Positions 2,944 through 11,408 of a DNA stretch of 41,345 bases are shown piece after piece. The position numbers were made by a program, and so were the translations under genes. The notes beneath the pieces were generated by a model, which saw only the letters and a program-made list of their open reading frames with translations, was not told where the DNA came from and made no database searches. Location of the stretch: the NCBI GenBank assembly GCA_016288005.1, contig JAEEXY010000022.1, positions 1 through 41,345 on the forward strand. The letters run 5' to 3'. The stretch's first letter is position 1, and each line of letters starts with the position of its first letter. This DNA comes from Lachnospiraceae bacterium. Its GTDB lineage: Bacteria > Bacillota > Clostridia > Lachnospirales > Lachnospiraceae.

Positions 2944-4401
2944 TTATTTCCTGTACTGCACGGTCTCATCGGTCTCTGCCCGGTCAGCCAGGTTTCCGGC
3001 TTCGTCAAAGGTATAGCGGGACACGCTGCAGGTGCCGCCGATCGTAAATGAGCTGGTTGCCGGCGAAAAGAATGTTGAAACAAAGCTCTCGACATCCCAT
3101 TCCAGCAGGCCGTTGGCGTTGACGTTCAGTTTGCCGCCCATGCAGCCGCTCACTGCGTAGAAGGTTTGCGGGGTACCGCCCTCGCGGTCGCACACCAGCA
3201 ATATCGCGGTGTAATTGTCCCGGACCAGAGGCGTCAGCTCTTCGCTGCTGATGCTCCATCCATGTTTATCAAAAACGTAATCGAGAATGTTCGCTATCTC
3301 GTGGCGTCCGCCTTCATCGTGCTGCAGGGGGACGGCGTATGCGGACGAGAAAACTTTTCCGCCGAACTCGACCGTATCCGTGATGTAGTACTGGCAATCA
3401 TCGGTATTGTAGGAATAATCCTCGAGGATGTTTGCTTCTTTGTCGACCTTAAACAGGTGGGAGGTATCGCCTGTAAACGTGTTGGACAGCTGCACCATGT
3501 ACTCGTCTCCGAGGCGGATGACGTTGCGGATGCCGTAATTCCCGACCTCGGTTTTGTGAAAGCTTAATTCATTGCCTTCGCTGTCATAGCGGCTGAGACA
3601 CAGGTTTGTGACGTCGCCTCTGCTGACCACTTCCCAGGTTCCGTCGCCGTTATCGAGGACAGCCGCGATTTCTTCGATCGAAAATGAATGATCTGTCTTC
3701 TTTTTCCACAATATGTTTCCTGCATCGTTTACACACGCGACCCATCCGCGAAGAGTATCTGTCGAGGAGCGGAGATGGTTCTGTCCCCACACGGCTGTTT
3801 TATCACCTAAGCGTGCATATCCGGAAATATAGAATTCCCTGAACTGTGCGCGCCAGAGAACGCGGTCGTCCGTATAGCATTCGAGTATGCAGATATCTTC
3901 CTGCTCCGCGCCGTCGACAGTATCGTAATCGATCCGGTAGCCGATATCGTTTTGGGGCGCGGGAGTGACACGTGAATTGAGGTTCCACGCAGCGGCCAGC
4001 TCGTCGGGAGAAGGCTCGGACGGCGTGATCTCCCAGCCCTGCACGGAATGTCTGATGACTTCGGCGGTTTTGCTGTAGGTGAAGCTGTTGGTCGTTATGT
4101 CCCGGTAGACCGCTTTTAACTCCGAACGGCTGAGGCCCTCTGAAGGCAGGCCGTTTTCCTCGAAAAACTGCACCGCCTCATTGTACTCTTTGGCCTCTGC
4201 CGAGAGCAAAACGGCGGTCGGGATAATGAGTGCGGTCATGAGCAGGCAGGCGGCCAGAGCGCCCCAGCTCAGGCGGAAGCTGCGTTTTTGCGCGGCACCG
4301 GTTTTTGAGGAACGGACGGGAGCACCGGGTAATGAAGCGGCTTCCCGTATATATTTTTCGTCGATATTGTTTAAGACCTTTGATATATCGTCTTTGTTCA
4401 T
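2944..4401 (-). CDS. Putative membrane anti-sigma factor partnered with the ECF sigma at 4398
   Basis: The protein has 485 residues: a short cytoplasmic N-terminus (1-45), one membrane helix at 46-67 and a large extracytoplasmic part. The start codon overlaps the end of the sigma gene by four bases (ATGA type), so the two are translationally coupled. This layout is typical of ECF sigma/anti-sigma pairs. The N-terminus (MNKDDISKVLNNIDEKYIREA) resembles that of the second such protein at 11405 (MSKDKL...IKDEYIKDA), which suggests both use this segment to hold their sigma factor. The outer part has no family I recognise; its many short beta-like segments could form a sensor domain. Anti-sigma function is inferred from position and topology. 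Confidence 0.6.
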   Translation of the reverse strand: MNKDDISKVLNNIDEKYIREAASLPGAPVRSSKTGAAQKRSFRLSWGALAACLLMTALIIPTAVLLSAEAKEYNEAVQFFEENGLPSEGLSRSELKAVYRDITTNSFTYSKTAEVIRHSVQGWEITPSEPSPDELAAAWNLNSRVTPAPQNDIGYRIDYDTVDGAEQEDICILECYTDDRVLWRAQFREFYISGYARLGDKTAVWGQNHLRSSTDTLRGWVACVNDAGNILWKKKTDHSFSIEEIAAVLDNGDGTWEVVSRGDVTNLCLSRYDSEGNELSFHKTEVGNYGIRNVIRLGDEYMVQLSNTFTGDTSHLFKVDKEANILEDYSYNTDDCQYYITDTVEFGGKVFSSAYAVPLQHDEGGRHEIANILDYVFDKHGWSISSEELTPLVRDNYTAILLVCDREGGTPQTFYAVSGCMGGKLNVNANGLLEWDVESFVSTFFSPATSSFTIGGTCSVSRYTFDEAGNLADRAETDETVQYRK

Positions 4402-4955
4402 AGACCCACCCCTTCCCTGATGAGGTATTTTCTGAGTGACTTTCTGACGCGTGAGAGCCGCACGGATACGTAATGACCGGTCTTGCCGAACATGTTCGCG
4501 ATATCCTCTGTGGTATCGGCGTACCAGTAGCGGCGGACAAACATTATCCTGTCGGTTTCGGGCAATGTTTCCAGAAAACGGTCGATCAGTTTTGCGGTCT
4601 CTTTCGCTTCGACCTCGTCCTCGACCGACGCCGTGGAAGGAAAGCAGTCCGCTATCTCGTCGAGAGCGATGTCGTAGGTGCTGTTTCTCTTTTGCGCCGT
4701 GTTCTCATGATATTTTTTCAGTGCCAGGTTTTTCACGATCCGGCTGAGATACCCCGCCAAAGGATCGGGACGCTGCGGGGGCACGGTGTTCCAGACCGCC
4801 AGATAGGCGTCGTTTACGCACTCCTCGCTATCCTGCCGGTTGTTCAGTATATTTCGGGCTATCCGGTTGCAAAGATTGCCGTATTTACGGGACAGTTCGG
4901 CGATGGCCTGCTCCGAGCGCTCAAAGAACAGGTCGATCAATTTTCCGTCGTCCAA
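4398..4955 (-). CDS. ECF-type RNA polymerase sigma factor
   Basis: This is a sigma-70 family protein of 185 residues with only regions 2 and 4, the normal size for extracytoplasmic-function sigmas. Region 2 includes DSEECVNDAYLAVWN (about 42-56), the core-binding and -10 recognition helices. Region 4 includes LPETDRIMFVRRYW and the helix-turn-helix TTEDIANMFGKTGHYVSVRLSRVR near the C-terminus. It directs RNA polymerase to a small regulon, presumably in response to the membrane protein encoded downstream. It is transcribed away from the leader ORF at 5168, with a SigA-like promoter at 5021-5049. A paralogous pair lies at 10845-12616. Confidence 0.9.
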   Translation of the reverse strand: MDDGKLIDLFFERSEQAIAELSRKYGNLCNRIARNILNNRQDSEECVNDAYLAVWNTVPPQRPDPLAGYLSRIVKNLALKKYHENTAQKRNSTYDIALDEIADCFPSTASVEDEVEAKETAKLIDRFLETLPETDRIMFVRRYWYADTTEDIANMFGKTGHYVSVRLSRVRKSLRKYLIREGVGL

Positions 4956-5020
4956 GCTATCACCGTCCCTTCCGGCCTTACCCGCTGTTTTAAAGCCCTC
5001 TGCTATATATCTACGGTTTT

Positions 5021-5049
5021 ATTATAAAAAATCTCACATATGTTGTACA
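5021..5049 (-). promoter_or_regulatory. SigA-like promoter for the ECF sigma operon
   Basis: On the minus strand, TGTACA (5044-5049) is followed after 17 bases by TATAAT (5021-5026). It lies about 65 bases upstream of the sigma start. Its -35 box is 18 bases from the -35 box of the divergent promoter at 5068. Confidence 0.65.
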
Positions 5050-5067
5050 CAAAAACAGAAAAATGTC

Positions 5068-5096
5068 TTGACAGGAAAAACAAACACGCTTATAAT
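5068..5096 (+). promoter_or_regulatory. Consensus SigA promoter for the leader ORF and efflux operon
   Basis: TTGACA (5068-5073), a 17-base spacer and TATAAT (5091-5096) match the consensus exactly. Transcription would start near 5103, about 65 bases before the leader ORF at 5168. It is the strongest promoter I see in the window. Confidence 0.85.
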
Positions 5097-5167
5097 CCGT
5101 TTACAGTGGACAACCACAAAGGGATCGTCGAAATTAACAGAAACTATAAGAAAGGAGGCAAAAACTG

Positions 5168-5269
5168 ATGATGAAATATCGTACATTTAACGGAAACTTA
5201 TCTGCGGCTCATGGAAAATTCAATATCGTGGATATAAGGTTAGCTTTTGCCTCGGATCGATGCAAATAG
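5168..5269 (+). CDS. Leader peptide ORF of 33 codons upstream of the ABC exporter genes
   Basis: The peptide is MMKYRTFNGNLSAAHGKFN followed by IVDIRLAFASDRCK and TAG at 5267-5269. AAAGGAGG (5151-5158) is an excellent ribosome site nine bases before the ATG, and a consensus promoter lies upstream. The peptide has no signal sequence, membrane helix or recognised family. A terminator-like palindrome begins 27 bases after its stop, and the exporter genes follow. This order matches the bmrB leader of Bacillus subtilis bmrCD, where ribosome stalling on a short ORF prevents termination. I infer a regulatory ORF; a small independently acting peptide is the alternative. A second ATG at 5171 could also be used. 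Confidence 0.7.
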   Translation: MMKYRTFNGNLSAAHGKFNIVDIRLAFASDRCK

Positions 5270-5302
5270 ACTGTGTTTTTATAGTGTATTTTCATAGGCC
5301 GC
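5204..5302 (+). promoter_or_regulatory. Candidate antiterminator pairing inside the leader
   Basis: GCGGCTCATGG (5204-5214, codons 13-16 of the leader ORF) can pair with TCATAGGCCGC (5292-5302) over eleven positions, with two G-U wobbles and one mismatch. The second segment contains the first six bases of the left terminator arm (5297-5302), so the two structures are mutually exclusive. A ribosome on codons 13-16 would block this pairing, while one held earlier would allow it. This was found by eye and not by a folding program. Confidence 0.5.
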
Positions 5303-5326
5303 GGTGCAATTGCACCGCGGCCTTTT
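5297..5326 (+). terminator. Intrinsic terminator (attenuator) before the exporter genes
   Basis: A perfect 26-base palindrome (5297-5322, left half GGCCGCGGTGCAA) is followed by TTTT. It lies between the leader ORF stop (5269) and the first exporter start (5382). No strong second promoter is visible after it, so exporter transcription probably depends on reading through. Confidence 0.75.
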
Positions 5327-5381
5327 CACGTCTTTTTGCATTGTTTCCGGGGATGGGAATAGAGAACGGAAGTGATTATCA

Positions 5382-7118
5382 ATGAAATTAGGGAAGTATT
5401 TATCAAGGTATTGGAAACAATATATATTTGCGATCATATGCCTGATCGTTTATGAAGCACTGGACATGGTATCTCCGCAGGTTGCGAAGAGCCTGGTCGA
5501 TGACGTTATCCGCGGCGGAAAGGTGGAGCTGCTCGTCAATCTCCTCCTGATCCTGCTGATCGTCGGCATCGGACGCGTGCTCGCGGGCTACGGCAGGGAG
5601 TACACCTTTGACAAGGTCAGCTTCCGCGCGGGCTCGGATATCAGAAAGCGGCTGATGGAGCACATTCAGAAGCTCGGAGTCGATTTCTTTGACAGGACTA
5701 ATACCGGCGAGATCATGTCGCGTGTAACGAGCGACGTGGAGGCGGTGCAGTCGGCATTCGGCTACATCGGCATGCTCGCGATCCAGATCGTGCTGCACAC
5801 CGCGATGGTGCTGTATTTCATGTTCAGGATCAGCTGGAAGCTCACGCTTTTCCCGGTGGTCGCGCTGCCGATCTGCGGCGTGCTCGCGATCATTCTCGAG
5901 AAAAAGCTGGACAAGGTATATGACGACATCAGCGAAGAAAACGCGAAAATGAATACCGTTGCGGAGGAGAACCTCGCGGGAGTGCGCGTGGTAAAAGCCT
6001 TCGCGCGTGAGAAGTTCGAGATCGGCAAGTTTCTCGGACACAACAAGACTTATTATGACCTCAACATGAAGATGTCGCTCGAATGGGTGCGCTACGATCC
6101 CATATTTGCAATGGTTTCGAGGCTTCTGCCCATTACCGCGGTCCTCTTCGGAGGCGTGCTCGTGATCAGACAGGAGATCACGCTCGGCGAACTCTCCGCA
6201 TTCGTCGCTTACTGCGAGAACGCAGTATGGCCGATGGAGATGCTCGGCTGGATCGCAAATTCGATCGCTTCGGCATTCGCGTCGAAAAAGAAGATCGACA
6301 AGATCTTTGCCGAGAAGCCTTCGATCGAGGCGCCCGAGGCTTCCGGGGATGAGAAGTTCGAGTTTAAGTCGCTCGAATTCGACCATGTGAGCCTCACGAT
6401 CGGCGACAAGGAGATACTCAAGGACATCTCGTTTAAGCTCGAGGCGGGCAAAACGCTCGGCATTATGGGCGCGACCGGCGCGGGCAAGACCTCGGTCATC
6501 AACCTGATCCTGCGCTTCTACGACCCCACAGAGGGCGTTATCAGGCTGAACGGCACAGACATCAGGGAGCTGCCCTTTGAGACTGTCCGCAGGGCTTCTG
6601 CGGCGGTTATGCAGGATGTTTTCCTGTTCTCCGACACTATAGCGGAGAACGTGCGTCTCGGCAGCAAGGACAGTATCACCGATGAGGACATTGAGACTGC
6701 GCTCGATGCATCCTGCGCGGCAGAATTCGTGGCAGGACTCGAAGAGGGCCGCGAAACGGTCATCGGAGAAAGAGGCGTCGGCCTCTCCGGCGGTCAGAAG
6801 CAGAGGATCAGCATGGCACGTGCATTCGCAAAGCATGCACCGCTGCTGATACTTGACGATTCGACCTCTGCGCTCGACATGGAGACCGAGCATCAGGTAC
6901 AGAAGAATATCGGCGCCATGGGCGGCATGACCAAGATCATCGTTGCCCACAGGATCTCGGCGGTACGCCGCGCGGAAGAGATCATCGTACTCGAGGGCGG
7001 AAAGGTGCTCGAGCGCGGAACTCACGCGGAGCTGATGGACCTGGGCGGCTACTATTACGACACATATCTCGCGCAGTACGGCGAAGCTATGGATTGCGCA
7101 GAGGTACAGACAGCATAA
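5382..7118 (+). CDS. ABC exporter half-transporter, degenerate-site subunit (BmrC-like)
   Basis: A protein of 578 residues: a six-helix type IV (exporter-type) membrane domain (about 1-310) fused to a nucleotide-binding domain. Walker A GATGAGKT is at 363-370, the Q-loop Gln at 411, LSGGQ at 468-472, Walker B LLILDDS at 488-494 and the H-loop His at 523. The residue after the Walker B Asp is Asp493 where the catalytic Glu normally sits. That is the known signature of the non-catalytic subunit in heterodimeric exporters such as BmrC and TM287. Its partner is the next gene, at 7235. Substrates are probably lipophilic drugs or lipids, as for the family. The start has a modest GGAAGTG ribosome site. 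Expression is likely governed by the leader and terminator at 5068-5326. Confidence 0.9.
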   Translation: MKLGKYLSRYWKQYIFAIICLIVYEALDMVSPQVAKSLVDDVIRGGKVELLVNLLLILLIVGIGRVLAGYGREYTFDKVSFRAGSDIRKRLMEHIQKLGVDFFDRTNTGEIMSRVTSDVEAVQSAFGYIGMLAIQIVLHTAMVLYFMFRISWKLTLFPVVALPICGVLAIILEKKLDKVYDDISEENAKMNTVAEENLAGVRVVKAFAREKFEIGKFLGHNKTYYDLNMKMSLEWVRYDPIFAMVSRLLPITAVLFGGVLVIRQEITLGELSAFVAYCENAVWPMEMLGWIANSIASAFASKKKIDKIFAEKPSIEAPEASGDEKFEFKSLEFDHVSLTIGDKEILKDISFKLEAGKTLGIMGATGAGKTSVINLILRFYDPTEGVIRLNGTDIRELPFETVRRASAAVMQDVFLFSDTIAENVRLGSKDSITDEDIETALDASCAAEFVAGLEEGRETVIGERGVGLSGGQKQRISMARAFAKHAPLLILDDSTSALDMETEHQVQKNIGAMGGMTKIIVAHRISAVRRAEEIIVLEGGKVLERGTHAELMDLGGYYYDTYLAQYGEAMDCAEVQTA

Positions 7119-7234: not shown

Positions 7235-9013
7235 ATGGCCAGAAACGCCACTAAACAGGACGAGCAGGTGAGCTCGGTTTCCAAGGGGAAAACACTGATC
7301 CGCCTGTTCTCGTACCTGCTCGATTATCGTGGCCTGATCGCCGTTGTTTTCCTGATAATGGCGGCAGCGACCACGATATCGATCATAAATCCGCTCATCA
7401 TCGAACGGGCGATAAACGTAAATATCGCAAACTCCGACACGCGCGGGCTGATCATACTCGGCAGTGTCGGCATCGGACTGAACCTGGTGCTCGTGTTCCT
7501 GATCAAGGCACGTATGTACCTGATGGCAAAGATGTCGAACGACGTCCTCGCCAAGGTCCGCAAGCAGCTCTATGAGCATATTCAGACGCTGGGATTCGGC
7601 TTTTTCGACAGCCGTCCCACCGGCAAGATCCTCTCGAGGATCATGGGCGACGTCAATTCCATGAAGGACGTGCTCTCAAACAGCGTAACCACGCTGATCC
7701 CCGACGCCGTGACCCTGATCGCGGTAGTGATCATCATGATGATGAAGGACTGGAGACTGGGGCTTGCCTCGCTCTGGAGCCTGCCCATCATGATCGTCGG
7801 CATCTGGACCGTCCAGACCCGTTCGCACAAGGGCTGGCAGGATTTCAGAAAGAAGAATTCAAACCTTAACGCATTCATCCATGAGGATGTGGCCGGGATC
7901 AAGATCGTCCAGAGCTTCAATGCGGAAAAGGAGACCCAGAAGACCTTTGACGGTCTGGTAGAGGAGCACTACGGCAGCTTTATCCATGCGGTGCGCTGGG
8001 CGGATCTGTTCGGACCCGTTACTGACATCTGCTGGGCCGTGGGACTCATCGCGATGTATTATGTGGGTGTTAAGGTGCTCGGCATCGAGAATGTGCAGGT
8101 CGGAACCCTCGTTGCATTTGCCTCGTATGTCGGCATGTTCTGGATGCCCGTCATGCACCTGAGCAATCTCTACAATCAGCTCGTGACCAATGTTGCGGGC
8201 GCGGAGCGTATCTTTGAGGTGCTCGATACCGAGCCAGAGATCACGGACGATCAGGCGGACTGTGACCTGCCGGAGGTAAGGGGCGCGGTCGAGTTTGAGC
8301 ATGTCAGTTTCCACTATGACGACGATCCGGATGTGCTGCATGATGTGAACTTCCGCGTAAAGCCCGGAGAGATGATCGCGCTCGTAGGACCTACAGGTGC
8401 GGGAAAATCAACTATTGTAAATCTGATCTCAAGATTTTATGATGTACAGGAGGGCAGGATACTCATCGACGGATACGACATCCGCGAGGTAACGATCGAG
8501 AGCCTTAGACGCCAGCTCGGCGTCATGACGCAGGAGAATTTCCTGTTCACGGGCACGATCCGCGAGAATATCCGCTACGGCAGGCTCGACGCGACCGATG
8601 AGGAGATCGAGGCAGCAGCCAGGGCTGTCAACGCTCACGACTTCATCATGAAGCTCGAAAAGGGCTATGATACCGAGATCGCCGAACGCGGCGCCGGCAT
8701 GAGCGCAGGCGAGAGGCAGCTGATCGCATTCGCGAGAACGATGATCTCGAACCCGAAGATCCTGATCCTCGACGAGGCAACCTCGAGCATCGATACCCAC
8801 ACCGAGATCCTCGTGCAGAAGGGCATCGAGGCGATCCTGCGCGGCAGGACGTCATTCGTCATCGCGCACCGTCTTTCGACGATCCGCAACGCCGACAAGA
8901 TATTCGTCATCGACGACGGCGGCATCAAGGAGGCGGGCACTGCGGAAGAACTCATGGCTCTGCGCGGCGCGTATTACGAATTATATATGGCTCAGTTCGA
9001 ACTCAGTGCGTAA
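7235..9013 (+). CDS. ABC exporter half-transporter, catalytic subunit (BmrD-like)
   Basis: A protein of 592 residues with membrane segments in about 1-320 and a C-terminal ATPase: Walker A GPTGAGKST 385-393, Q433, signature MSAGERQ 489-495, Walker B ILILDEA 509-515 with catalytic Glu514, and H545. The catalytic Glu is intact but the signature loop departs from LSGGQ. The gene at 5382 shows the reverse pattern (normal LSGGQ, no catalytic Glu). Together they make one normal and one degenerate ATP site, as in BmrCD and TM287/288 heterodimers. The final codons and the TAA stop lie inside an 18-bp inverted repeat (8991-9032). Confidence 0.92.
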   Translation: MARNATKQDEQVSSVSKGKTLIRLFSYLLDYRGLIAVVFLIMAAATTISIINPLIIERAINVNIANSDTRGLIILGSVGIGLNLVLVFLIKARMYLMAKMSNDVLAKVRKQLYEHIQTLGFGFFDSRPTGKILSRIMGDVNSMKDVLSNSVTTLIPDAVTLIAVVIIMMMKDWRLGLASLWSLPIMIVGIWTVQTRSHKGWQDFRKKNSNLNAFIHEDVAGIKIVQSFNAEKETQKTFDGLVEEHYGSFIHAVRWADLFGPVTDICWAVGLIAMYYVGVKVLGIENVQVGTLVAFASYVGMFWMPVMHLSNLYNQLVTNVAGAERIFEVLDTEPEITDDQADCDLPEVRGAVEFEHVSFHYDDDPDVLHDVNFRVKPGEMIALVGPTGAGKSTIVNLISRFYDVQEGRILIDGYDIREVTIESLRRQLGVMTQENFLFTGTIRENIRYGRLDATDEEIEAAARAVNAHDFIMKLEKGYDTEIAERGAGMSAGERQLIAFARTMISNPKILILDEATSSIDTHTEILVQKGIEAILRGRTSFVIAHRLSTIRNADKIFVIDDGGIKEAGTAEELMALRGAYYELYMAQFELSA

Positions 9014-9104: not shown

Positions 9105-10517
9105 ATGAACACGGCAGAAAACCGGAGCGGCTTGGGCAAGCTGATAGGAGACAGGAAATTTTACGCAATGGTACTCGGGATCGCAGTCCCGATGATGATA
9201 CAGAACGGCATTACGAATTTCGTGAGCTTTCTGGACAATATCATGGTCGGACAGCTCGGGACCGAGCAGATGTCCGGAGTCGCGATCGTCAATCAGCTCG
9301 TGTTCGTCTACTCGCTCTGCCTGTTCGGCGCCGTTTCGGGCGTCGGGATATTCGGAGCTCAGTATTTCGGACGCAGGGACTGGGAAGGCATGCGGAATAC
9401 GTTCCGCCTCAAACTCATTGTCTGCGTTGCGATAAGCATTATCGCGATACTGGTATTCATTATCGCGGGCGATACACTGATCAATTACTATCTGCTGGGC
9501 GAGGGCAGCGAAGGCGATATAGCCGCTACCTTTGAGTTCGGCAGGAGATATCTGTTCATCATGCTCTGGGGCCTGCCTCCGTTCGCGCTGACGCAGATCT
9601 ACGCGAGCATGCAGAAGGAAATGGGCGATACCAGGATACCGATGATCGCGGGCGTTGTAGCGGTCATCACAAACCTGGGCCTGAACTGGCTGCTGATATT
9701 CGGTCACTGGGGATTTCCGGAACTGGGCGTCGAAGGCGCGGCGCTCGCGACCATCATCTCCCGATATGTTGAGATGCTGATCGTTATGGTCTGGACGCAT
9801 TCCCACGCAAAGAAATACGAATACATCAAAGGCGCGTTCAGGAGCCTGCACGTGCCCGCCCTGCTGGTAAAGCAGGTGGCGATAAAGGGCTTTCCGCTGA
9901 TCATCAACGAAACGCTCTGGTCCGCGGGCATCGCGATGCTCACACAGTGCTATTCGCTGCGCGGCCTCGAGGTTGTAGCCGCGATGAACATTGCGACCAC
10001 GATCACGAATCTGTTCAATGTCGTTTACCTCTCGCTCGGTTATTCCGTAGGAATAGTCGTCGGCCCGATGCTCGGCGCCGGAGACATGGAAGAGGCAAAG
10101 ACGACCGCATACAGGATGATAGCTTTTTCACTCTCGATGGGAGTGCTGATCGGAATTCTCGTATTCGTGCTGGCGCCTCTTTTCCCGAGAGCCTACAATA
10201 CGACCGACAGCGCCAGGGCCATGGCTGCGTCGATCATCAGGATCGGAGCCTGCTTCATGCCGATATTTGCTTTTGAAAATGCGGCATATTTCACGCTCAG
10301 GGCCGGAGGCCGGACAGGCATTACATTCCTGTTCGACAGCGCGTTCATGTGCGTGATCTCGGTACCCGCGGCATTTATCCTGTCGCGTTTCACGGCGCTT
10401 CCGATCCTTCCGCTGTACGCCTGCGTGAACCTGCTGAACCTGCTCAAGTGCACGTTCGGGTTCATACTGGTCAAAAAGGGCGTGTGGATCAACAATATCG
10501 TTAATGAGATAGCATGA
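9105..10517 (+). CDS. MATE-family multidrug efflux transporter
   Basis: An integral membrane protein of 470 residues with about twelve hydrophobic segments, the usual size for MATE (NorM/DinF type) antiporters. These export cationic drugs in exchange for Na+ or H+. Family-typical features are the N-terminal PMMIQNGITNFVSFLDNIMVGQLG segment (about 30-53) and the matching helix pattern in the second half. CGGAGA (about 9093-9098) precedes the ATG. It follows the two exporter genes on the same strand with no T-tailed terminator between, so a three-gene efflux operon is likely. Palindromic element A starts at the base right after its stop codon. Confidence 0.9.
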   Translation: MNTAENRSGLGKLIGDRKFYAMVLGIAVPMMIQNGITNFVSFLDNIMVGQLGTEQMSGVAIVNQLVFVYSLCLFGAVSGVGIFGAQYFGRRDWEGMRNTFRLKLIVCVAISIIAILVFIIAGDTLINYYLLGEGSEGDIAATFEFGRRYLFIMLWGLPPFALTQIYASMQKEMGDTRIPMIAGVVAVITNLGLNWLLIFGHWGFPELGVEGAALATIISRYVEMLIVMVWTHSHAKKYEYIKGAFRSLHVPALLVKQVAIKGFPLIINETLWSAGIAMLTQCYSLRGLEVVAAMNIATTITNLFNVVYLSLGYSVGIVVGPMLGAGDMEEAKTTAYRMIAFSLSMGVLIGILVFVLAPLFPRAYNTTDSARAMAASIIRIGACFMPIFAFENAAYFTLRAGGRTGITFLFDSAFMCVISVPAAFILSRFTALPILPLYACVNLLNLLKCTFGFILVKKGVWINNIVNEIA

Positions 10518-10844: not shown

Positions 10845-11408
10845 GTGGAAGACAGCAGGATCGTCGGTATGTACATGGAGAGGGATGAGTCCGCAATCGC
10901 TGAAACGCAGCGCAAGTACGGGCGGTATTGTTTTGCCGTTGCGCATAATATCCTGAACGACAGGGAAGACGCCGAGGAATGCGTAAACGATACTTTCCTG
11001 GCCGCATGGAACGCCATCCCGCCGCACAATCCGCAGATACTTTCCACGTTTCTCGGGAAGATCACGAGGCGGCTGTCTTTAAAGAAGCTCCGCGCCAGAA
11101 CTGCCGCAAAGCGCGGCGGCAGCGACGGCATCGCCGTTTCGCTGGACGAGCTGGAGGAATGCATCCCTTCGGGACACACGATCGACGAGGCATTGGAAGC
11201 AAAGGAACTGACCGATATCATCAATTCCTTCCTGGACACCCTTTCCGATGAGGAACGGCGCGTTTTTCTGCGCAGATACTGGTTTTTTGACACGATCGAA
11301 GACATCTGCGGGCGTTTCGGCTTCGGGAAGAGCAAGGTCAAAATGATGCTCAAACGCACGCGGGACAAGCTTCGCACGCACCTCGAAAAGGAGGATATCT
11401 GTATATGA
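10845..11408 (+). CDS. ECF-type RNA polymerase sigma factor (second copy)
   Basis: A sigma factor of 187 residues starting at GTG, with AAGGGGG about nine bases upstream. Region 2 contains DAEECVNDTFLAAWNAIPPHNP (about 43-64) and region 4 contains LSDEERRVFLRRYWFFDTIEDICGRFGFGKSKVKMMLKRTR. It is clearly paralogous to the sigma at 4398: EECVND, AWN, FLRRYW and TIEDI blocks align. It overlaps the anti-sigma gene by four bases at 11405, as the first pair does. It therefore probably controls its own small regulon; what is sensed is unknown. Confidence 0.9.
   Translation: MEDSRIVGMYMERDESAIAETQRKYGRYCFAVAHNILNDREDAEECVNDTFLAAWNAIPPHNPQILSTFLGKITRRLSLKKLRARTAAKRGGSDGIAVSLDELEECIPSGHTIDEALEAKELTDIINSFLDTLSDEERRVFLRRYWFFDTIEDICGRFGFGKSKVKMMLKRTRDKLRTHLEKEDICI

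Follow-up and report, generated by a model that had tools for sequence, protein, structure and literature searches.

A leader ORF whose own Shine-Dalgarno sequence is a probable anti-antiterminator upstream of a BmrC/BmrD-like exporter in a Lachnospiraceae bacterium

The DNA analysed here (hereafter, the window) is a stretch of 41,345 nucleotides (nt) from a Lachnospiraceae bacterium (assembly GCA_016288005.1, contig JAEEXY010000022.1, positions 1 to 41,345), in which the genes of a BmrC/BmrD-like ATP-binding cassette (ABC) exporter are preceded by a leader with a promoter, a 33-codon open reading frame (ORF) and a terminator-like hairpin. This leader layout is conserved before related exporters and is best described as a variant of ribosome-mediated transcription attenuation. 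We favour, with a probability of about 0.62, the reading that the Shine-Dalgarno sequence (SD) of the leader ORF is itself the anti-antiterminator. The SD pairs with a strand located towards the end of the same ORF (the anti-SD), and the comparison of relatives points to a switch between three alternative structures, namely SD:anti-SD (off), anti-SD:terminator arm (on), and terminator (off).

The leader in the window

The elements of the leader are listed below (MFE, minimum free energy).

5068..5096, + strand: sigma-A type promoter, TTGACA-17-TATAAT, 12/12 consensus matches
5151..5158, + strand: SD of the leader ORF, AAAGGAGG, read directly from the sequence
5168..5269, + strand: leader ORF of 33 codons, MMKYRTFNGNLSAAHGKFNIVDIRLAFASDRCK, by translation; second ATG at 5171
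5155..5169, + strand: 5′ strand of the SD:anti-SD helix (proposed anti-antiterminator), GAGGCAAAA + CUGAU, spanning SD and start codon; MFE fold, shuffle test and covariation
5239..5253, + strand: anti-SD strand, GUUAG-C-UUUUGCCUC, in the final codons of the leader ORF; MFE fold, complementary to the own SD in relatives
5242..5263, + strand: anti-SD side of the proposed composite antiterminator; partner 5292-5308, duplex −10.9 kcal/mol
5202..5217, + strand: window-specific alternative antiterminator strand (codons 13-16, extended); partner 5289-5304
5261..5294, + strand: small hairpin across the stop codon of the leader, located between anti-SD and terminator; MFE fold
5296..5326, + strand: intrinsic-terminator-like hairpin with short U-tract; perfect 26-nt palindrome GGCCGCGGTGCAATTGCACCGCGGCC at 5297-5322, TTTT at 5323-5326

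The promoter, the strong ribosome site, the 33-codon ORF and the palindrome followed by TTTT lie exactly where an earlier note on this DNA had placed them, and the arrangement that it had read as an attenuator, a leader ORF ahead of a BmrCD-like exporter, is present in the window and conserved in relatives. Its title spoke of a translational attenuator, a term we do not retain because a terminator ahead of the gene implies transcription attenuation. More generally, the interpretation as a bmrB-like, ribosome-sensing attenuator is partly supported, and its central element as described here, the SD:anti-SD pairing, was absent from the earlier note.

The folded leader RNA reached −75.4 kcal/mol versus −51.7 kcal/mol for shuffled sequences (MFE; standard deviation 4.4, z −5.3), and is thus far more stable than the shuffles in the folding that the earlier note had proposed. 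In the MFE fold, the SD and start codon (5155-5169) pair with 5239-5253, and 0/300 shuffled ORFs paired equally well. The small hairpin at 5261-5294 recurs in the folds of the two nearest leaders (L004 and L012), with both sides of the stem changed, as judged by eye.

Covariation of the SD:anti-SD helix

The window leader is one of 64 leaders retained from 106 upstream regions of subunit A relatives, which came from two sets. The first included genomes near that of the window (42/99 genomes matched at E ≤ 1e-100, paralogues included), the second named genomes, where the 80 best out of at least 588 loci were used; these are mainly from Lachnospiraceae, the others including Clostridium, Bacillus sp. 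EAC, and Treponema. A filter based on the SD:ORF duplex passed 71 of the 106 regions, and 11 of these were discarded by eye as false (L045, L060, L062, L079, L088, L091, L097, L102, L107, L029, and L033). L045, L057, L062, and L069 were restored or added with hand-set sites, giving the 64 leaders in 57 clusters, among which 6 anti-SD and 8 terminator sites are hand-set; L063 and L067 were left out. In the upstream region of L067 we observed, by eye, a promoter, an SD, and an anti-SD nearly adjoining each other, an arrangement that a deletion of most of the leader ORF would produce.

The leader is present in 34/40 second-set loci at ≥50% identity, and for three of the six leader-less ones (L041, L076, and L084) hardly any upstream DNA, or none, is available; among the remaining 40 loci of that set it was found in eight (L081, L083, L086, L087, L089, L092, L093, and L099). 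A sigma-A-like promoter (≤3 mismatches) lies upstream of 54/57 leaders versus 29/57 shuffled upstreams. Hairpins followed by T-runs are kept in the relatives of the window leader; the pairing of codons 13-16 is not conserved.

Across the 57 clusters, the anti-SD begins 47-111 nt after the start codon, and 12-57 nt separate its last base from the ORF end. The SD:anti-SD duplex has an energy of −13.1 kcal/mol for matched pairs, −10.2 for mismatched, and −5.7 for shuffled ones (n=64), and 0/10,000 permutations were as low. This comparison carries two biases. The anti-SD is located by its match to the SD, and for this reason mismatched pairs were given equal freedom (z 8.4). Furthermore, the leaders were chosen by their SD:ORF duplex, which favours the result; thus, we repeated the analysis with leaders chosen by SD strength alone, i.e., against the 16S tail. 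The same ORF was picked in 54/57 clusters, 48/57 beat shuffled ORFs at p≤0.05 (51/57 with the biased, duplex-based pick), and matched pairs reached −14.67 versus −11.26 for mismatched pairs (z −11.2, 57 clusters). In the ≥50% identity set, 32/38 regions were significant by the SD-strength pick, and genus members with a six-pair anti-SD gave a weak signal. The mean score of ordinary genes with a GAGG-type SD was 5.04 (n=396) versus 7.78 for the leaders (n=57), with the score level of the window attained by 9/396 ordinary genes. As negative control, 12 upstream stretches of other exporters in the genome of the window (25 ABC_membrane matches) gave one candidate by score. This candidate (L158) is a 52-codon ORF that was picked on score.

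Double changes are evident at individual positions of the helix. The base after GAGG forms U-A in 38/57 clusters and C-G in 9/57, and two bases further A-U occurs in 30/57 and G-C in 17/57; at the position before GAGG, A-U, C-G, G-C, and U-A all occur, with a standard pair in only 27/57. The SD:anti-SD helix is demonstrated by covariation, and the leaders possess the anti-antiterminator helix expected of a bmrB-type attenuator. The anti-SD falls in reading frames 0/1/2 in 42/8/7 of the 57 clusters; its occurrence in all three frames suggests that the RNA and not the peptide is maintained, although one frame is preferred. On the same basis, a conserved leader peptide as the kept element was set aside, though 42/57 are in frame 0.

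Pairing of the anti-SD with the terminator

At the family level, an antiterminator mutually exclusive with the SD:anti-SD helix is supported by the complementarity of the anti-SD to the 5′ arm of the terminator, an arm that is often SD-like among the leaders. In L059 (SD GGAGGUAAU, anti-SD AUUACCUCC, terminator arm GUGGUAAU) the arm resembles the SD; similarly, anti-SD AAUAGCCC faces arm GGGCUAUU in L087, and AAUAACC faces GGUUAUU in L089. The anti-SD:arm energy was −8.6 kcal/mol for matched, −6.45 for mismatched and −6.24 for shuffled pairs, with 0/10,000 permutations as low. When 16-nt windows of the leader were scanned against the terminator arm, the peak fell at the anti-SD (z −9.6), and those 50-55 nt past the start, which overlap the anti-SD in many leaders, gave z −4.1 and −4.3. 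Scan windows without anti-SD overlap did not exceed z ±1.7; the region of codons 13-16, at about −1.3, is one of these (57 clusters).

Then, we calculated the states of transcripts ending in the terminator loop, as equilibrium folds and not as kinetics. In naked RNA, SD:anti-SD formed 6.2 pairs on average and anti-SD:arm 0.9; masking of the SD and the first codons raised anti-SD:arm to a mean of 3.8 pairs. This brought an anti-SD:arm gain of more than one pair in 38/57 clusters and a loss of equal size in none. When the ribosome was placed at the stop codon, anti-SD:arm averaged 0.02 pairs.

On this basis, the switch could operate as follows. With no ribosome on the nascent RNA, the SD would pair with the anti-SD, the terminator would fold, and transcription would stop. 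During free translation, the ribosome at the end of the ORF would cover the anti-SD and the terminator would fold again. Conversely, a ribosome that has loaded and then halts on or close to the first codons, for instance under an antibiotic, would mask the SD and leave the anti-SD free to pair with the terminator 5′ arm, allowing RNA polymerase to read through and the exporter to be made. We infer the masking by the ribosome, the on and off directions, and antibiotics as the signal, and likewise the use of the anti-SD:terminator pairing by the window itself.

If this is true, the RNA computes "ribosome loaded AND end not reached", separating stalled from absent ribosomes. In the predicted logic, the ribosome-binding site doubles as a switch strand, so that the RNA would respond to ribosomes that are present but stuck. 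In any case, the analysis provides a covariation-supported anatomy for a sizeable set of drug-exporter leaders.

Spread beyond Lachnospiraceae and before other genes

Outside the Clostridia the layout turns up again: it precedes BmrC-type exporters in Neobacillus (L128), in one Listeria (L126), and in genomes of the order to which Bacillus sp. EAC belongs. Examples are L182 (anti-SD CGUAACCUGU, terminator arm ACAGGUUACG) and L174 (anti-SD GUGACCUGU, terminator arm ACAGGUCAC). The L165 genome, which encodes a BmrC-like protein 93% identical to the solved YheI chain, carries a leader with the SD-region:anti-SD helix AGGAGGGUUUGCUAUG / CGGCAAACCCUA. In this second collection of leaders (Bacillales BmrC-type plus one Listeria, also chosen by duplex), z was −7.6 for SD:anti-SD and −6.7 for anti-SD:arm (n=32/35), values obtained with 10 terminators hand-set to the first hairpin and L189 dropped. 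Before this hand-setting they were −7.5 and −4.1 (n=33/35; L167 and L125 had no leader or no terminator). Keeping one leader per distinct anti-SD (n=21) gave −6.2 and −5.4.

Exporter-blind searches with the pattern GGAGGTAA-N53..83-TTACCTCC and with the pattern GAGGTAAT-N52..82-ATTACCTC led to 19 places, of which 16 were examined (without L193, L195, and L196). Nine of the 16 were leader-like by eye, and six of these nine are upstream of BmrC-like exporters. Among the remaining three, two stand before other ORFs and one, L203 (G672:C59, minus strand), has an SD, an ORF MTKMKKSFYQNLIKHMITSKKYQK, an anti-SD, and a terminator directly ahead of an RsgA-type GTPase gene (TIGR00157, 148.5 bits, cut-off 100); its anti-SD:arm pairing is not significant (p 0.18). 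We consider it an even bet that all these leaders form one attenuator class of Lachnospiraceae, Clostridium, Bacillales, and Listeria, in which the SD is the anti-antiterminator and the terminator 5′ arm mimics it, including bmrB of the Bacillus subtilis group and behaving as a portable module, as the copy before the RsgA-type GTPase gene would indicate.

As a side observation, relatives of the RsgA-type gene (L212 and L217-L223 regions) have a different leader, with a AACCUUUCGUGAAUA-like anti-SD in 8/13 loci and a CGAAAGGAG-like SD partner in five of those eight, which may be a second SD:anti-SD leader type. A leader of the main type, as before the exporters, also stands in L201 (G467:C5) before a 54-codon ORF, followed by an ORF resembling the FbpA/RqcH family by eye.

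Comparison with known attenuators

In ermC-type translational attenuation, stalling in a leader ORF re-pairs a helix that contains an SD. There, unlike in the leaders studied here, the sequestered SD belongs to the resistance gene, and translation rather than transcription is controlled.

The closest known system is bmrB of B. subtilis, for which drug-induced, translation-dependent read-through was reported (PMC4191407, a paper that also mentions ermC-type attenuation). According to the portions of that paper available to us, terminator, antiterminator, and anti-antiterminator all fall within bmrB itself, between nt 60 and 162 of its 162 nt, and the authors described what the anti-antiterminator does as unclear (Reilman 2014, PMC4191407); in the same portions "Shine-Dalgarno" is not mentioned and "RBS" (ribosome-binding site) appears only for constructs and ermC. 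The likeness to the window consists of a short translated ORF, an intrinsic terminator (a terminator-like hairpin in the window), a predicted antiterminator and anti-antiterminator, and a BmrC/BmrD exporter downstream, and it extends to the SD-region:anti-SD helix through L165, which is not the strain 168 sequence. The difference is that the terminator of bmrB is inside the ORF, whereas the hairpin of the window is outside (ORF end 5269, hairpin start 5296), its palindrome starting 27 nt after the stop codon. The earlier note had proposed an attenuator independent of bmrB or diverged from it; judging from sequence, the window leader is probably not independent, because Bacillales BmrC-type exporters, including the 93% YheI relative, have the same layout. 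Our reading proposes a role for the bmrB anti-antiterminator that its authors left open, and possibly for the Rli59 leader of Listeria.

The vmlR leader of B. subtilis, as far as its published description was available to us, has a 3-codon upstream ORF (uORF), and a ribosome stalled there blocks the anti-antiterminator so that the antiterminator forms (PMC9226507). It shares with our proposal the prevention of the anti-antiterminator by a stalled uORF ribosome; it differs in having the uORF inside the anti-antiterminator hairpin, an SD that is single-stranded before the hairpin, and an ABC-F gene downstream (PMC9226507). From the accessible text, Rli53/lmo0919 of Listeria also combines terminator, antiterminator, anti-antiterminator, and a 3-codon uORF, and Rli59/lmo1652, in which a small ORF precedes the gene of an ABC transporter, reacts to several inhibitors of translation, with details of its regulation missing according to a review (PMC7154746, PMC8079631). 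With its 33 codons, the window leader is not of the vmlR/Rli53 type (about 3 codons), while the BmrC-like Listeria locus L126 shows the SD:anti-SD:terminator layout.

The patAB leader of Streptococcus pneumoniae resembles these in having a terminator and a predicted antiterminator and anti-antiterminator before an ABC exporter pair; its reported inducers are fluoroquinolones and DNA damage, and the portions of the source at our disposal describe no leader ORF or SD role (PMC4319486). ABC-leaders are also listed in PMC2965389, in the available text without mention of "Shine-Dalgarno". Judged by title, the start of the abstract, or the passages cited here, none of the papers listed by our searches of the mainly open-access literature describes a leader of this family in which the SD of the ORF itself serves as the anti-antiterminator strand.

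Evidence against the proposed switch and alternative explanations

Several results weigh against the switch as we propose it, or against its generality. By the SD-strength pick, 5/13 same-genus regions are significant (the leader is not universal), and so are 22/35 loci of the Bacillales and Listeria collection, meaning that not every exporter has a leader; in the Bacillales loci L132-L148, closest to Listeria L125, it is 1/17, and no leader was seen by eye in 10 inspected regions of this group. Related exporters thus differ in carrying the leader. At the same time, 8/36 regions outside the 64 are also significant, so the background is not zero. The exporter-blind searches are weak, with the first pattern occurring in 4/299 genomes versus 12 for its reversed control, and the second in 14/397 family genomes versus 8. 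The anti-SD:arm pairing is individually significant in only 17/57 clusters and in 3/9 pattern-found leaders. In the state calculation, a ribosome at codon 8 brought anti-SD:arm back to 1.0 pairs and SD:anti-SD re-formed on average, so that the stall must be early. In B. subtilis, read-through fell rather than rose in a bmrB construct that had lost its start codon and carried four changes in the 5′ untranslated region, some of them directed at potential ribosome-binding sites, according to the accessible part of PMC4191407; this would speak against our proposal if the SD is among the changed bases.

Other points of this kind concern the window itself. The U-tract of its terminator is short (TTTTCACG) and weak, and the hairpin was not listed by a simple terminator scan. 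The composite anti-SD:arm helix can be drawn in the window (energy as listed above) and in two relatives (−13.4 and −12.8 kcal/mol); the arm being GC-rich, it is no better than in shuffles (p 0.71 in the window, 0.33 and 0.46 in the relatives). In the window, the pairing gave p 0.95 when tested with the anti-SD 21-mer and 0.25 with the whole ORF, and in silico masking of the SD moved anti-SD:arm from 0.93 to 0.43 pairs, failing to raise it. Much stronger in the window is the helix of codons 13-16, which the earlier note had taken as the antiterminator: 5202-5217 pairs with 5289-5304 through 15 pairs with one mismatch (−20.9 kcal/mol, p 0.017).

That pairing is real in the window, and it opens an alternative in which a stall at early codons frees codons 13-17 to pair with the terminator 5′ arm, with the SD:anti-SD helix merely damping leader translation. 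The codon 13-17 helix is the most stable antiterminator of the window and is part of its MFE fold when a ribosome is placed at codon 2, 5, or 8. Nevertheless, we consider this alternative unlikely, as neither of the two nearest leaders, L004 and L012, has the helix (p 0.32 and 0.66), the region shows no co-evolution with the terminator in the scan reported above, and a comparable helix outside the anti-SD reaches p≤0.05 in 2/57 leader clusters, about what chance gives. As a family feature, the codon 13-16 antiterminator was rejected, being neither conserved nor co-evolving; the window has either a private antiterminator or a chance helix, and the SD:anti-SD helix is kept under both.

The SD:anti-SD helix, by far the best-supported pairing, could also act by translational self-restraint only, limiting leader translation or protecting the RNA ahead of a leaky constitutive terminator, with no drug switch. 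The terminator pairing of the window, not significant alone, would fit; however, both sets of leaders show co-evolution between the anti-SD and the terminator 5′ arm (z −9.6 and −6.7), and bmrB of B. subtilis is induced by ribosome-targeting drugs, as stated in the accessible part of PMC4191407, which leaves this explanation rather improbable. A riboswitch or protein-binding leader that senses the exporter substrate directly, with an incidental ORF, would agree with the strong folding of the leader. We regard it as very improbable, given that the conserved feature is SD complementarity, that the spacing from start codon to anti-SD varies (47-111 nt), and that no Rfam family matched at gathering score in the window or in 16 relatives. 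At a relaxed threshold, positions 4990-5450 gave 11 Rfam matches, all below gathering and of unrelated types, which were rejected. Overall, the ribosome-mediated attenuator with the SD as anti-antiterminator is the reading that we retain.

Exporter and flanking genes

The genes downstream of the leader are listed below.

5382..7118, + strand: exporter subunit A, BmrC-like ABC half-transporter; Pfam, LDDS at Walker B by eye
7235..9013, + strand: exporter subunit B, BmrD-like ABC half-transporter; Pfam, LDEA at Walker B by eye
9105..10517, + strand: MATE-family transporter, the next gene; MatE 5.8e-43

YheI, which we take to be BmrC, supplies the first half-transporter chains in the list of solved structures related to subunit A; YheH (BmrD) is among the solved-chain matches of subunit B, though not the best one. 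By sequence, the pair downstream of the leader is BmrC/BmrD-like. In one of the nearest relatives, L004 (G005:C37), the sixth codon of the subunit A gene is an in-frame TAA, with the leader nonetheless well kept; the same assembly has a second subunit A copy on another contig.

The exporter and MATE genes are flanked by two related extracytoplasmic function (ECF) sigma factor genes, at window positions 4398-4955 (− strand) and 10845-11408 (+ strand). Their products are identical at 82/187 aligned positions, and each gene is followed by an overlapping longer ORF.

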